From a virus, in the IMG/VR virus record IMGVR_UViG_3300046616_000314, positions 350,616-414,615 of that record: a stretch of DNA of 64,000 bases, one strand, 5' to 3'. This document shows, piece after piece, positions 32,266 through 58,254 of the stretch; position 1 is the stretch's first letter, and each line of letters starts with the position of its first letter. A model generated the notes under the pieces. That model made no database searches. It was not told the origin of the DNA and saw nothing but the letters and a program-made list of their open reading frames with translations. A program made the position numbers and the translations under genes.

Positions 32266-32412
32266 ATGGCTCTATTATTTGCAGTTCTGGTTCTTGCTGG
32301 CTTTGGTTTTTGGTGGTTGGCGACTTGGCCCGTCGCATACGCCGAGCGTATTGCTAAGGGTTTATTCTTTTTCGCAGCCCTTGTGTGGTTCTTTACTAAG
32401 GTAACGATTTAA
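32266..32412 (+). CDS. Plus-strand 48-residue membrane microprotein within the minus array
   Basis: ATG 32266 follows a strong AGGAGA ribosome site. Two hydrophobic segments, LLFAVLVLAGFGFWWLAT (3-20) and GLFFFAALVWFF (32-43), flank a short Arg/Lys-containing loop: a two-helix inner-membrane hairpin. Such proteins can be holins, antiholins or membrane-acting inhibitors. Opposite in strand to the array around it and bounded downstream by a perfect 12-bp inverted repeat, so it looks like a separate insertion. No good promoter recognised. Confidence 0.75.
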   Translation: MALLFAVLVLAGFGFWWLATWPVAYAERIAKGLFFFAALVWFFTKVTI

Positions 32413-37094: not shown

Positions 37095-37541
37095 CTATTT
37101 CCAAATACATAAAATACAATAACCTTCCGACAGGTAATATCCACGCTCTAGTAAAGCAGTAATCGCCGGATGTTCAGAGAGATAACCTTTGGCTGCATCA
37201 TCAGAGATTGCCGCCATCAACGCAGGTACGTCATCGGGGCTTTCAATGAATGAGAAAATTTCAGGTTCGTCCGTTACTAATTTAACCATAATATCATGGT
37301 CGAGCACCGGATCGCCATATTTTGTTAACCGCATTATCCGATGTTTGTGTTCGGCAGGAATGTTGTAGCCAACAATCGCCCCGTCCTCATGGCGCAATAG
37401 ATCGGCGTTGCGTTCCAACTCTCGTATCAGCATGTCAACATGACCCGCTGCGCTACTGGATAGAACCTGCAAATCTTGCCAAGATGCTTTACCGAACACG
37501 CTGATCAGAGATACGAGGGTTTTGACGACTCTACTGGTCAC
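37095..37541 (-). CDS. Hypothetical protein
   Basis: 148 residues. N-terminal half (TLVSLISVFGKASWQDLQVL) could be a helix-turn-helix-like bundle followed by RELERNADLLRHEDGAIVGY, which resembles winged-helix wings. C-terminus ends in CILCIWK. Overlaps the methyltransferase stop by 11 bases and ends one base before gp47. Not recognised. Confidence 0.7.
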   Translation of the reverse strand: MTSRVVKTLVSLISVFGKASWQDLQVLSSSAAGHVDMLIRELERNADLLRHEDGAIVGYNIPAEHKHRIMRLTKYGDPVLDHDIMVKLVTDEPEIFSFIESPDDVPALMAAISDDAAKGYLSEHPAITALLERGYYLSEGYCILCIWK

Positions 37542-38457
37542 GCAACACCTTCAGCATTTGTTGTGCGACAGCACGAATCATCGGCACGGGAACCGAGTTA
37601 CCCGTTTGCTTCTTGATCGCCGAATAGGGCACAACGATCTTATAATCAGCCGGGAAACCCTGTAGGTTCAATAGTTCCCGAGACGATGGGCGACGAGTGC
37701 CGTTGACCAAGATGTAATTGTAAGAAGCCGTAGCTCTCAGAGCCACCGAATACGGCAGGACTGAGATATTTCCGCTCTTATTCTCGTGCCAGATGGACGG
37801 ATAGAACGGAACAGACTTCAAACGTGCGCTACGCTTGGCTAGAATGTGCTCAGAAGCCTTTAAAGAGGGATCATGGTCCGCACCAGCCTCTAGGACCGTT
37901 TCAAGCCCTGGTGGGCTTCCTAGGGGCTCTGGGAAGGCAAAGGGCACGTCATCTTTGAAGCCGACGATGATTGTACGCTCACGTTTCTGCGCACACCCGA
38001 AGTCCAGGGCGTTTAGAACGGTCGAATGGACGTGGTAGCCGAGCCCTTGGAGGGTTTGTTCGATAACCGCGAACGTCTTGCCGCCATCGTGCGTCTTGAG
38101 GTTCTTGACGTTCTCTAGGAGGAAGGCTTTGGGCTGTTTTTCTTGGATGATGCGGGCGACATCGAAAAACAATGTGCCACGGGTATCATTGAAGCCCAAC
38201 ATCTTCCCGGCGCCTGAGAAGGCTTGACACGGGAAGCCGCCAACGAGAATATCGTGATCGGGGATTGTCTTTTCGTCAATCTGCGTGATGTCGCCATGGG
38301 GCTTGTCACCGAAGTTGGCTTCGTAGGTTTTTTGTGCGGCAGCATCCCATTCGGATGTAAAGACGCACTCACCACCTAGTTCTTGAAAGGGGATACGAAT
38401 GCCCCCGATGCCTGCGAATAGATCAATGAATTTAAAATCGTTCCAATTGCTTGACAT
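37531..38457 (-). CDS. DNA (cytosine-5) methyltransferase
   Basis: Transfers a methyl group from S-adenosylmethionine to C5 of cytosine in a short target. 308 residues with all main motifs in order: I FAGIGG (14-19), IV PCQ with catalytic Cys77, VI ENV (about 118-120), VIII QKRERT (about 159), target region with SIWHENKSGNISVLPYS, IX RELLNLQGFP, X GNSVPVP. It probably protects phage DNA from host restriction, or from the phage's own HaeIII-like enzyme at 55.9 kb; the target site cannot be read off. Confidence 0.92.
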   Translation of the reverse strand: MSSNWNDFKFIDLFAGIGGIRIPFQELGGECVFTSEWDAAAQKTYEANFGDKPHGDITQIDEKTIPDHDILVGGFPCQAFSGAGKMLGFNDTRGTLFFDVARIIQEKQPKAFLLENVKNLKTHDGGKTFAVIEQTLQGLGYHVHSTVLNALDFGCAQKRERTIIVGFKDDVPFAFPEPLGSPPGLETVLEAGADHDPSLKASEHILAKRSARLKSVPFYPSIWHENKSGNISVLPYSVALRATASYNYILVNGTRRPSSRELLNLQGFPADYKIVVPYSAIKKQTGNSVPVPMIRAVAQQMLKVLRDQ

Positions 38458-54624: not shown

Positions 54625-54894
54625 TTAGACTCGGTTCTTACCAATGTGGAAGCCATCGCACATGGCGCATTTGTAGGGGCGGAACTTCCCGCCATGTTTC
54701 TTTTCCATAGACACGGCAGCTTTCTCCGCACTCTTCAGGCTACCATAGGCGACCTTCGGTTTACCAGAGCCTTGCGCAATATGGGAATTCTTGTGGAACA
54801 GTCCCCAGGCATTTCGCGTGATGACGAAATTGCGGAACATCCGACTTAGGGGAAGCTGATACTTCAGAGCAAGAATTATATTTCGAATTTTCAT
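54625..54894 (-). CDS. Small Cys/His zinc-binding-like protein
   Basis: 89 residues from ATG 54894. C-terminal KCAMCDGFHIGK: CxxC plus His as in the short zinc knuckles of many phage proteins. N-terminal half basic and helical. ATGA overlap with the KW-tail gene upstream. Confidence 0.7.
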   Translation of the reverse strand: MKIRNIILALKYQLPLSRMFRNFVITRNAWGLFHKNSHIAQGSGKPKVAYGSLKSAEKAAVSMEKKHGGKFRPYKCAMCDGFHIGKNRV

Positions 54895-55130
54895 TTTTGC
54901 CATTTCAACTTGAAGAGGGCTGCATCATGATTGTTCTGAAATAGCACTTGCCATGTACGATATCCAGCATCATCCAAGAAATGCGTACACGTGATAGCAT
55001 GGACATCGTAAATTTCGTTGGCGATACACCAGTCAATGATGTCTTCTTTCGTGCCTTGCTCGCGCAGAATAATGACACTACACGTGAAGCCAGGATAGTC
55101 TAATGGATCAACAACGTCTTCGAAATGCAT
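54891..55130 (-). CDS. KW-tail family protein
   Basis: 79 residues. Centre IDWCIANEIYDVHA, tail QNNHDAALFKLKWQK. The only minus-strand copy to the right of the array; it lies directly downstream of dam. Confidence 0.85.
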   Translation of the reverse strand: MHFEDVVDPLDYPGFTCSVIILREQGTKEDIIDWCIANEIYDVHAITCTHFLDDAGYRTWQVLFQNNHDAALFKLKWQK

Positions 55131-55133
55131 GTG

Positions 55134-55928
55134 TTAGATAAGTCCGTTGGTCGCCACGCTAGAAGCAAGGTTCTTGCTGAAGATCAACACTTCCTTAGCC
55201 GATTTGTCCTTCGACATTCCATACGCCCACTGGGGCTCGACCTGCGGAAATTCGGCGTACATATCTAGGATTTCTTTCCCATTATTATATGACATGACCC
55301 AGTTGTCGCGATCCTTCACTAGATCGAACAAAGCCGCATGGTCGAACCCCCGGTGTGTATCACCGCGATTGCCGTAGAGATTGTTCTTGTCTTCGTCCAA
55401 CAGGTAGGGAGGATCGAGGTACAAGAACGCATCCGGGTTCTGAGCAATCGAGTCGCGGAAGTCCATCAGTTCGACAGTGAAATTGTCAACCTTGAAGTCC
55501 TTCAGATAGTCGATATTAGATACGTTAAATCGTTGACCGGCAGACATGCCGCCCGACATCGTAGAGCCACTGAACGACGAACGATTGAGCACATAGAACG
55601 TGGCGCCCTTCTCGAAATCATCGGTCATGGTGGGGTTGGTCTTCTGAAGCGTCTTGAAGACATCCTTGGTGATCGGATGGTACTTCATCACTTCGGTATG
55701 CAGAGCCTTGTTATCCTTCAGGAGGGCATTCCAGAAACACACCAAGGGCTCAAACACGTCATAAGCCTTCACTTCCATACCTTGGGCTGCACACGCCAGT
55801 TCAACCGATCCACCGCCCAAAAATGGCGAACACAGTTTCTTAGTGTCGCGCGGGATGTACGAGAGGATGATGTCAACAGCGCGGCTCTTGCCGCCAGGGT
55901 AACGAAGGGGAGACTTGATCTTACGCAC
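55134..55928 (-). CDS. dam: DNA adenine methyltransferase (Dam-like)
   Basis: 264 residues, D12-class N6-adenine methylase: LRYPGGKSR (8-16) and PFLGGGSVEL (35-44) bind S-adenosylmethionine, AYDVFEPLVCFWNAL continues the fold, and DPPY (about 173-176) is the catalytic motif. The family usually methylates GATC; GATC is common in this window by eye. Overlaps the restriction-enzyme gene by eight bases, so the two are co-expressed. Confidence 0.92.
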   Translation of the reverse strand: MRKIKSPLRYPGGKSRAVDIILSYIPRDTKKLCSPFLGGGSVELACAAQGMEVKAYDVFEPLVCFWNALLKDNKALHTEVMKYHPITKDVFKTLQKTNPTMTDDFEKGATFYVLNRSSFSGSTMSGGMSAGQRFNVSNIDYLKDFKVDNFTVELMDFRDSIAQNPDAFLYLDPPYLLDEDKNNLYGNRGDTHRGFDHAALFDLVKDRDNWVMSYNNGKEILDMYAEFPQVEPQWAYGMSKDKSAKEVLIFSKNLASSVATNGLI

Positions 55929-56796
55929 TAGGAAGAATATCTTTCAAAATAAATTCAGGGTATTCAACAAAAATAATATTCGACTTCAGTTGGGGGCTCG
56001 ATTTCATTCTTGTGTCACCGTTCTTCACGCGGACCTGTAAATGACAGGCGTGTCCCGTGTTGGTGAGCAATTTGAAATTGAACTTGTTGGCTTGCGTCTT
56101 GCCCCGCATCGGCAGGGTTTCGATGTCAACCACGTCAACGAAATTGAGTTTGTCTAAGACCGTATAATCCTCAACATAGCAACCCTTTTTCGAAATTGCG
56201 AATTTAAAATAGGGTTCGCTACCAAAAATAAATTTGCCTAGGGTGTTAGCTAACTTGGCGCGATCTTCGCTCTCGTTGATCAGATTTACCGAAGAACTAA
56301 CCCACTCGTCATAAGCATTGTACTTGCCGCCCCAAGATGAGAATCGACGTTCATCCGTGGGGAACTGATCATAAAGGCTGCGGATACTCGCGCCTTGATC
56401 GGGGTTGACACCATAAACTTTGGTGAAGTCGTAATTGCGATGGGTTCGATTACTTTTCAGTTCGGGATTGTTGTGCTTGCACGAGATACCGAACCACTTG
56501 TCACCTTCGGCAACGATGTCGCGGGGATCACCCTTTGCGCCAGCCATGTCGCTATTGAAGGCGAAGAATTCTGGTAGGGGTCGCCCTTCCGAACGCTTCA
56601 CGTAATCCACAACATAGTTCAGAGCAATCTCATCCATATGATTGTAGAGGGTCGGTGCATCTAAACGTAATTCGCCGTGTGCGCTTTGATTAGCGAAATA
56701 CGAGGGATTTTGCGTGAATGAAATTCCAGTGACGCTCGTTAGATGATGAGCAACAAGAAATTCGAATGCTTTGCCGTTACGGACTTGTGTAGCCAT
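55921..56796 (-). CDS. HaeIII-like type II restriction endonuclease
   Basis: 291 residues from ATG 56796. GDPRDIV (89-95) followed by WFGISCKHN (101-109) matches, from memory, the D...(x)K nuclease core of HaeIII (GDVRDIL ... SIKHN), with a following HR-x-x-DF segment and an FGSEPYFKF segment at corresponding places. HaeIII cuts GGCC. A phage could use it against host or rival DNA. A cognate methylase is not next to it: the neighbour is Dam, while the C5 methylase lies at 37.5 kb. Its start is just downstream of a terminator, so its own promoter is unclear. Confidence 0.75.
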   Translation of the reverse strand: MATQVRNGKAFEFLVAHHLTSVTGISFTQNPSYFANQSAHGELRLDAPTLYNHMDEIALNYVVDYVKRSEGRPLPEFFAFNSDMAGAKGDPRDIVAEGDKWFGISCKHNNPELKSNRTHRNYDFTKVYGVNPDQGASIRSLYDQFPTDERRFSSWGGKYNAYDEWVSSSVNLINESEDRAKLANTLGKFIFGSEPYFKFAISKKGCYVEDYTVLDKLNFVDVVDIETLPMRGKTQANKFNFKLLTNTGHACHLQVRVKNGDTRMKSSPQLKSNIIFVEYPEFILKDILPSA

Positions 56797-56805
56797 GGTG
56801 AATGT

Positions 56806-56842
56806 TAAAAACAAAATGGGGATCACCAACTAAGTGATCCCC
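56806..56842 (-). terminator. Rho-independent terminator of the sigma-factor operon
   Basis: On the minus strand GGGGATCAC, 7-base loop, GTGATCCCC, then ATTTTGTTTTT. Stem at 56818-56842, T run at 56806-56816. It ends transcription from the gp55-like operon just before the restriction-enzyme gene. Confidence 0.85.
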
Positions 56843-56912
56843 AGATTTGTTCCGGTTCCTTAATTTGTTAACCATGTATAACAAAGGCTAGGAACCATAT
56901 GCATTATTAAAA

Positions 56913-57236
56913 TTACAGTGACTCGTAATTTTCTTTCAGCCACTCGATAACAGCATTGAAATCATTCGAAGAATCGCTAAGTTCAGCGAGCTTTAAAACC
57001 TCTTCTTCCGACTTGATTTTGCATCGTTTCATGGCGTCTTTGCTCATCACCAAAGGTGAGCCTGCCCACGTATAACCGTGAAGGTCGCTTTGAACCCAGG
57101 CTTCCTTGTCTAGGAAATCGAGCAACACTCCAAGAGCGCAGAAATGGTCATCGTGGTCGCGCAAACCACACTTACCATGTTTGTATTCACCGGATTCAAG
57201 ACGTTCGATCCACTTAAGGGCGGTTCCGCGATTCAT
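56913..57236 (-). CDS. Conserved small phage protein, unknown function
   Basis: 107 residues. WIERLESGEYKHGKCGLRD then HFCALGVLLDFLDKEAW is a pattern I know from hypothetical phage proteins (L-x-S-G-x-Y-x-Q ... C-x-L-G-V-L). ATGA overlap with gp55-like gene's stop, so co-translated with it. Its 70-base downstream gap leads to the terminator. Confidence 0.7.
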   Translation of the reverse strand: MNRGTALKWIERLESGEYKHGKCGLRDHDDHFCALGVLLDFLDKEAWVQSDLHGYTWAGSPLVMSKDAMKRCKIKSEEEVLKLAELSDSSNDFNAVIEWLKENYESL

Positions 57237-58087
57237 GCTGCTAGATCGTCCGACTTCGAAACCAGCGGGGGAGCCTTGGGCTTACGACCACGGGTAGACT
57301 TGGCGCCTTCCGGTAGACGATACTCAAGTTCGTTCTCGACCTGTCGGGTGTACGACGGGGTTGCGCCAGCCATGATGAGAAGGTCATCGCGGATGTTCTG
57401 GTTCTTCTTTTCGAGGTTCAGAATGCGGGTGAAGCAATTCTTGATGACGGTGGTATAGAAAGCGAACGGGTTGTCCGACTTGCTCTCGTCAAACTGAAGA
57501 CCGATTTGCGCAAGCTGAAGGTGGGCTTGGCTACGCATTTCGTCTACATACGTATAACCGCGCCAGTTGCCGCGACGCGAGTAGCGTTCGACCAGCAACA
57601 TCATCATCATGGCAAGGCGATTGTTGATCTTGCCGTTGTCGGTGCAGAAGTGACCGTTTTCAATGCCGCCCTTCCAATGCGAACGCAGCACTTCCTTCAG
57701 ACCGTCTTCAGTCATGATGTAGTGCTTGAAGGGTGGGAAACCTGCCTTGACGTAAAGCTTGTCGCCAACGACCTTGCTCTTACGTGATTTAATAGGGTCT
57801 TCTGGAATGTGTTCGTAAGTCATAACCCGGAACACGAGGCTTTCGGTGGTGATGGTGTTAATGTCGATTGAGGGTTTGCCACGAGGCGATGCCTTCTTAG
57901 CCTTTACCTTGTCAATCAGTTCTTGTGTGATCTCACTCTTGTCTAAAACAATGATGTCATGGTTGGAATGCGCTTCATCAACGAAAGAACAAAATGACTT
58001 CTTGCTTTCGTGAATAGCTGCTAACAACTCTTTGTTATTGATATACTTGATTTTTGCACTTTGTGCAACTGCTGGGGTAATGCTCAT
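57233..58087 (-). CDS. 55: Late-transcription sigma factor (gp55-like)
   Basis: 284 residues from ATG 58087, with AGGA before it. The core GYTYVDEMRSQAHLQLAQIG and NPFAFYTTVIKNCFTRILN matches sigma region 2 as in T4 gp55 and its cyanophage relatives, which direct RNA polymerase to TATAAATA late promoters together with the sliding clamp. The N-terminal 110 residues are longer than in T4 gp55 (185 residues), and the basic C-terminus (STRGRKPKAPP) may contact DNA or polymerase. Confidence 0.8.
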   Translation of the reverse strand: MSITPAVAQSAKIKYINNKELLAAIHESKKSFCSFVDEAHSNHDIIVLDKSEITQELIDKVKAKKASPRGKPSIDINTITTESLVFRVMTYEHIPEDPIKSRKSKVVGDKLYVKAGFPPFKHYIMTEDGLKEVLRSHWKGGIENGHFCTDNGKINNRLAMMMMLLVERYSRRGNWRGYTYVDEMRSQAHLQLAQIGLQFDESKSDNPFAFYTTVIKNCFTRILNLEKKNQNIRDDLLIMAGATPSYTRQVENELEYRLPEGAKSTRGRKPKAPPLVSKSDDLAA

Positions 58088-58254
58088 ATAGTTAATATAT
58101 CCTATCTTAATTCTAATACGCAATTTTTATTATTCAAAAACACTTGAAATAGTGAAATTAATACAGTAACATGGAAGAATCTGGTCTCCACTAGCGATTT
58201 AGATTGCCTATTTCGTCTCAGATCGTGTATGGTTAACTCCTACTTTAATGCATT

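Follow-up and report, generated by a model that had tools for sequence, protein, structure and literature searches.

The locus considered here raises the question of whether a phage can carry a restriction enzyme and remain unharmed by it because its own genome has lost the sites that the enzyme cuts. A gene resembling that of HaeIII, which cleaves GGCC, lies in a 64-kb window, the whole stretch of DNA that was analysed, which corresponds to bases 350616-414615 of a phage record of 561,116 bp. The sequence-only reading had noticed a single GGCC in this window where roughly two hundred would be expected by composition, and had proposed that such a loss would allow the phage to keep an active GGCC cutter with no need for methylation and to turn it on the DNA of hosts or competing phages. 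In its stronger form, this reading makes the phage's own enzyme the driver of the loss. The counts were made in the window and in a sample composed of the window and ten 20-kb stretches (L002-L011) spread along the record, together 264 kb or 47% of it. The window indeed contains one copy:

32327..32330, no strand assigned, the sole GGCC of the window, in the context TTGGCCCG, outside the called open reading frames

The computed expectation is 199 copies from base composition, 167 from a first-order and 185 from a second-order Markov model. With an observed/expected ratio of 0.005 GGCC is the lowest of the 256 tetramers in the window, the next being AGCT with 0.72. Beyond the window the count does not approach expectation either: 12 copies were observed versus 798 expected in the 264-kb sample (log10 of the Poisson probability about -320), and each 20-kb stretch was depleted, with 0-2 copies versus 52-74. 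As shuffling of synonymous codons in 295 open reading frames of at least 100 amino acids yielded 599 +/- 23.5 GGCC versus 9 observed, codon and protein composition do not explain the scarcity. Chance or composition as its cause is ruled out by the Markov models of orders 0-2 together with the codon shuffling. GGCC is thus far below both compositional and codon-based expectation, and its scarcity is stronger than had first been stated. A sum of several six-base sites containing GGCC was rejected as an alternative to GGCC itself, as almost every combination of flanks is close to zero, some that relatives of the phage keep among them. Extrapolated from the 12 copies in 47% of the record, probably about 25 GGCC sites are left genome-wide. 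None of the 12 residual sites reads CGGCC at either flank (24 positions; P = 1.7e-4 from NGGC composition). Residual GTAC sites in a related phage record, G001, are flank-biased as well.

The gene and its surroundings are arranged as follows:

54891..55130, minus strand, small open reading frame with a C-terminus of the F-K-L-K-W type (seen in the translation), downstream of the adenine methyltransferase gene
55134..55928, minus strand, D12-class (Dam-like) N6-adenine DNA methyltransferase; its gene shares 8 bp with the 3' end of the nuclease gene
55921..56796, minus strand, HaeIII-family restriction endonuclease-like gene, 291 amino acids, ATG at 56796
56817..56843, minus strand, terminator-like hairpin followed by a T tract (consensus scan and sequence)
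56913..57236, minus strand, small open reading frame between sigma factor and nuclease (PHROG 18067, E 3.5e-12, no function given)
57233..58123, minus strand, late-transcription sigma factor, a core gene beside the cargo region (PHROG 12791, E 3e-81)

The nuclease matches the Pfam family RE_HaeIII (PF09556) with 33.4 bits, above the cut-off of 25 (E 3.6e-8), over profile positions 1-161 of 298, and the Type II restriction endonuclease model of PADLOC (REase_II) with an E of 2.6e-7; searches of NCBIfam, PHROGs and the PDB gave no match. The peptides GDPRDIV and WFGISCKHN, on which the likeness to HaeIII had originally been based, are both present and align with the family-invariant core GD.RD ... 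G.S.KHN. In an alignment of six sequences D83, G86, G89, D90, R92, D93, G103, S105, K107, H108, and N109 are invariant, and these residues presumably act in catalysis. Comparison with five family members by hhalign extended over 277 columns with a probability of 98.3 and covered both halves of the protein. The identity to these members is 19-21%, whereas they share 33-46% among themselves. The N-terminal half is 24-30% identical to the five relatives (29-53% among the five) and the C-terminal half 14-15% (33-43% among the five). An AlphaFold2 model built with 5 sequences had a mean pLDDT of 37.8. Judged from these alignments the nuclease is a real but distant member of the HaeIII family, and its specificity is not readable from family membership. 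Peptide-pattern searches in viral and genome contigs and tblastn searches in phages retrieved no relatives of the nuclease. Weak tblastn matches were obtained to two plasmid proteins with a HaeIII-family annotation, and an alignment with these two led to four viral HaeIII-family loci.

The assigned ATG matches the N-terminus of the family, and a longer frame starting with TTG (to 56829) would begin inside the terminator-like hairpin. This hairpin, which ends about 20 bp upstream of the ATG and leaves scant room for a separate nuclease promoter, is what speaks for the view that the nuclease gene is cargo, either inactive or neutral, and that GGCC was lost through host avoidance only. The consensus scan found 3 terminators versus 3.0 in shuffled sequences, a count which is not significant. 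As the frame of 291 amino acids is intact and the family-invariant D, K, H, and N residues are kept, such an inactive gene appears very improbable. With regard to the neighbouring genes, the late sigma factor gene of Agrobacterium phage Atu_ph07 lies beside gp46/gp47-like genes. The small open reading frames ending in F-K-L-K-W-like sequences encode a family of small proteins that has expanded greatly, with 98 of the 503 open reading frames in the 264-kb sample (median 93 amino acids), 57 of these in the window. Elsewhere this ending was found in 11 of 302 open reading frames of G001, 4 of 346 of the related record G002, and 6 of 222 of Sinorhizobium phage Phosso, and in none of those sampled from Atu_ph07 and the related records G013 and G015.

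The immediate partner of the nuclease gene is a methyltransferase of the adenine class. Its product gave 101.7 bits with Pfam MethyltransfD12, an E of 6.9e-50 with the PADLOC model MTase_II and a match to PHROG 56 (DNA methyltransferase); no other D12 match occurs in the record, and searches of genome contigs with peptide patterns retrieved no relatives of the enzyme. As GGCC has no A, this enzyme cannot protect GGCC. A second methyltransferase was found 17 kb from the nuclease:

37531..38457, minus strand, C5-cytosine DNA methyltransferase (PF00145, E 6e-77)

It is the one C5 match in the record. In the PDB it is closest to M.HhaI, with 249 bits versus 129 bits for the HaeIII methyltransferase, and it lacks the recognition region with an MSRN motif which is common to five aligned partner methyltransferases of HaeIII-family nucleases. 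The C5 enzyme as a protector of GGCC thus finds no support, and the phage record yielded no recognisable methyltransferase of the GGCC type. In six of six other HaeIII-family loci (two plasmids and four viral contigs) the nuclease gene adjoins a C5 methyltransferase gene, unlike the gene studied here, beside which no C5 methyltransferase with the HaeIII-type recognition region but one of the D12 adenine class is found.

These observations lead to an explanation in which nuclease and adenine methyltransferase are an ordinary restriction-modification pair with a target that contains A, the likeness to HaeIII and a host-caused purge of GGCC having come together by coincidence. The pairing with an adenine methyltransferase suggests an A in the cognate site of the nuclease, and the 8-bp overlap of the two genes, the divergence of the C-terminal half of the nuclease, and the cytosine methyltransferases at all the other loci point in the same direction. 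However, neighbouring genes often overlap in this region, which makes the coupling weak evidence, and the profile alignment covers the whole nuclease protein. We regard such a pair as a possibility to be taken seriously, to which the data from related phages described below also apply.

The purge reaches far beyond GGCC, a breadth which had been missed in the sequence-only reading, and its scale is the striking result. Nineteen palindromic hexamers which do not contain GGCC have 0 copies in the 264-kb sample versus 984 expected, and 0 versus 768 in coding sequence by codon shuffling; examples are CGATCG (0/155), ACGCGT (0/73), GACGTC (0/68), GTCGAC (0/65), and CCGCGG (0/64). The RGATCY set is wholly absent from the sample. 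The other 41 palindromic hexamers without GGCC reach at least 0.5 of the codon-shuffle expectation. A further 19 gapped 3+3 palindromes, at gaps 1 and 3-7, have observed/expected ratios below 0.2, including GGTNACC, CCTNAGG, GACN3GTC, and CAGN3CTG to CAGN7CTG. As no non-palindromic 3+3 pair with gaps of 2-14 was below 0.2, it is restriction-type palindromes that are specifically purged. An overall scarcity of palindromes or hairpins was rejected as an explanation because the 41 hexamers are retained and because gapped palindromes are purged at particular spacings only. Several of the purged motifs correspond to the sites of BstEII, Bsu36I, PvuI, SalI, and other known enzymes. Asymmetric hexamers are lost too (CATCTC 0/104, CACCTC 0/54, CTCCAG 1/49). 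None of the 5-mers with more than 15 expected copies was below 0.4, and among the 4-mer palindromes GGCC alone is strongly purged in this phage. The five consecutive spacings CAGN3CTG, CAGN4CTG, CAGN5CTG, CAGN6CTG, and CAGN7CTG, all purged, misfit one ordinary enzyme. Sites of the AGCGCY type are purged in the 264-kb sample (AGCGCT 0/43, AGCGCC 4/132) and GGCGCC is enriched (135/100).

The ten other stretches were searched with PADLOC using the 102 longest of their 117 proteins of at least 150 amino acids, and no restriction enzyme was found, so that the hexamer purge is not explained by the phage nucleases found here. Matches among these 102 proteins were to the IetA, AbiEi, TRIP13, NYN, and DolB models.

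Related phages were reached via the large terminase and a gp46-like protein. The large terminase is 57-58% identical to those of Sinorhizobium phage Phosso and Agrobacterium phage Atu_ph07 and up to 65% identical to those of IMG/VR contigs. Eighteen relatives were testable for GGCC: G001-G006, G011-G019, and the cultured phages Phosso, Atu_ph07, and PA5oct. Excluded were L069 and L070, with fewer than 10 GGCC expected, and the apparent duplicates L060 (of L061), L064 (identical to G002), and L071 (identical to G015); the apparently near-identical L059 and L066 were both kept as they stem from different records (G012 and G017). The hexamers CGATCG, CCGCGG, AGATCT, GGATCC, GCCGGC, and CTGCAG are at 0 in the phage studied here, in G001, in G002, and in Atu_ph07, and G001 and G002 further share zero counts for GACGTC, GTCGAC, CTCGAG, and others. 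The number of hexamers at zero is 14 of 57 testable ones in Atu_ph07, 4 of 64 in Phosso, and 25 of 56 in G015. G001 and Atu_ph07 have no or almost no copies of hexamers with CCWGG, which are not among the purged hexamers of this phage. G001 purges GGCGCA (0/150), TGCGCA (0/43), and AGCGCT (0/44), yet keeps GGCGCC (177/128). The C5 enzyme of this phage as the reason for the retention of GGCGCC found no support, as G001 keeps GGCGCC with no match to the enzyme in a search run without a positive control. GANTC is at about half of its dinucleotide-based expectation (0.41-0.51) in this record, G001, and G002, and at 0.70 in Atu_ph07, which may be a vestige of hosts that methylate GANTC.

GGCC itself is kept in most relatives, with 400/406 in Phosso, 1203/1342 in G001, 883/963 in G002, and 138/186 in Atu_ph07. 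Other 4-mers are purged instead: GTAC in G001 (33/341), G011, G012, G013 (0/104), and G016, and TGCA in G015 (21/147). In 39 kb sampled from the 78-kb contig of G018, a distant relative (L067, L072; gp46-like protein 40% identical), GATC stands at 0/121.5 and GGCC at 0/24. No Type II restriction endonuclease was detected among 120 of the 130 G001 proteins of at least 170 amino acids, a set that represents roughly half of G001. To judge from fragments and half-genomes, a 4-mer purge with no matching phage enzyme is usual in this group.

In this phage the GGCC purge and the HaeIII-family gene occur together. RE_HaeIII was found in 0 of 20 relative records searched (9 + 11), many of these fragments, and GGCC is below 0.1 of expectation in 2 of the 18 testable relatives, G018 (0/24) and G006 (0/11.6). 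Both of these relatives are AT-rich fragments with no HaeIII gene found, in G018 on the whole 78-kb contig. A purge of GGCC without the gene is what would be expected if the nuclease belonged to an ordinary pair with an A-containing target, but as only these two among 18 show it, that explanation needs a coincidence.

The same data bear on the claim that the phage's own cutter drove the loss. In its favour, GGCC is the one 4-mer palindrome purged here, the sole gene-bearing phage is also the sole one above 0.44 G+C with a GGCC purge, and a GGCC-type methyltransferase was not recognised in the record, its lone C5 enzyme being devoid of the HaeIII-type recognition region. A link between enzyme and site loss is hence plausible, but it comes from a single phage. 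Against this stands the completeness of the losses. A lethal self-cutter predicts that GGCC should be the cleanest site, and the reverse was found: GGCC is leakier (12/798) than the 19 hexamers (0/984), which are cleaner despite about twice the number of one-mutation neighbours (21,751 versus 12,069). In addition, the approximately 25 residual sites count against an active unprotected cutter, since such a cutter would hit them. The 4-mer purges of the relatives are comparably complete or leaky, from GTAC at 33/341 in G001 to 0/104 in G013, and that of G001 occurred with no Type II restriction endonuclease among its 120 proteins searched. What stands of the original proposal is a HaeIII-family gene in a genome with near-zero GGCC and no recognised GGCC methyltransferase. 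What does not stand is the gene as the sole or proven cause: dozens of other motifs were lost with no phage nuclease found for them, similar hexamers are purged in relatives that lack the gene, some of which have lost another 4-mer, G018 purges GGCC itself, and the enzyme is diverged, with 14-15% identity in its C-terminal half, and has an adenine methyltransferase as partner. A loss driven by the phage's own enzyme therefore seems unlikely.

The explanation which we tentatively prefer, giving it a little less than an even chance, is that host restriction drove the purge and that the near-absence of GGCC lets the phage carry a HaeIII-type cutter cheaply; the pair with an A-containing target ranks nearly as likely. 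According to the host-restriction explanation the phage would belong to a megaphage group, related by sequence to Phosso and Atu_ph07, whose members escape host restriction through site loss, and GGCC would have been purged most likely because the hosts carry HaeIII-type (GGCC) restriction systems. The distant HaeIII-family endonuclease would be carried together with the adenine methyltransferase as cargo beside core genes. In a nearly GGCC-free genome a GGCC-type cutter would do little self-damage even without a cognate cytosine methyltransferase, and its targets would be the chromosomes of hosts or co-infecting DNA. Since the phage has no recognised methyltransferase of the GGCC type, site loss could take the place of methylation, and it may protect the phage from the enzymes of its hosts as much as from its own nuclease. 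That the putative GGCC cutter is active without cognate methylation against host or rival DNA, the genome being guarded only by the near-lack of targets as part of a broader strategy of shedding dozens of restriction-type motifs, is a stronger proposition and for the present a doubtful one.

If the nuclease cuts GGCC, it would represent a viral restriction enzyme made safe via site loss and not via methylation. Nineteen palindromic hexamers at zero and nineteen gapped palindromes nearly absent in the sampled half of the genome constitute an unusually sharp record of the restriction systems met by this lineage. As the lists differ between relatives they could fingerprint host range, and purge lists of phages could reveal environmental restriction repertoires from sequence alone.

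Among known systems the HaeIII family (PF09556) is closest to the nuclease, with a significant Pfam match, the GD.RD...G.S.KHN core and a full-length profile alignment in common. The differences are an identity of only 19-21%, the adjoining adenine methyltransferase, and the location in a 561-kb phage record. The plasmid and viral restriction-modification loci of the same nuclease family (L020, L021, L031-L034) differ in that each adjoins a C5 methyltransferase, five of which, when aligned, share the region lacking in the C5 enzyme of the phage; in the four viral loci GGCC observed/expected is 11/31, 9/17, 13/22, and 2/20. Chloroviruses are likewise large viruses with Type II-like endonucleases, which according to the available part of one article are packaged, are thought to degrade host DNA, and are encoded next to companion methyltransferases (PMC7019647). 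The phage described here differs from that account in having no recognised GGCC-type companion and in that the sites themselves are missing. A survey of jumbo phages discusses, in its accessible portion, methylases and other DNA modification (PMC7824862). The open-licence literature yielded no report of a purge this broad in this phage group, nor of a HaeIII-family enzyme in a phage whose genome has lost GGCC. Avoidance of recognition sites by phages, by contrast, is well documented in the sections available of two articles (Rusinov et al. 2018, PMC6286503; PMC12707154). The near-complete loss of palindromic Type II sites found here resembles the avoidance described in that portion of PMC6286503, and it differs from it in that dozens of motifs are gone from one very large genome and in that the losses include asymmetric hexamers and gapped palindromes.
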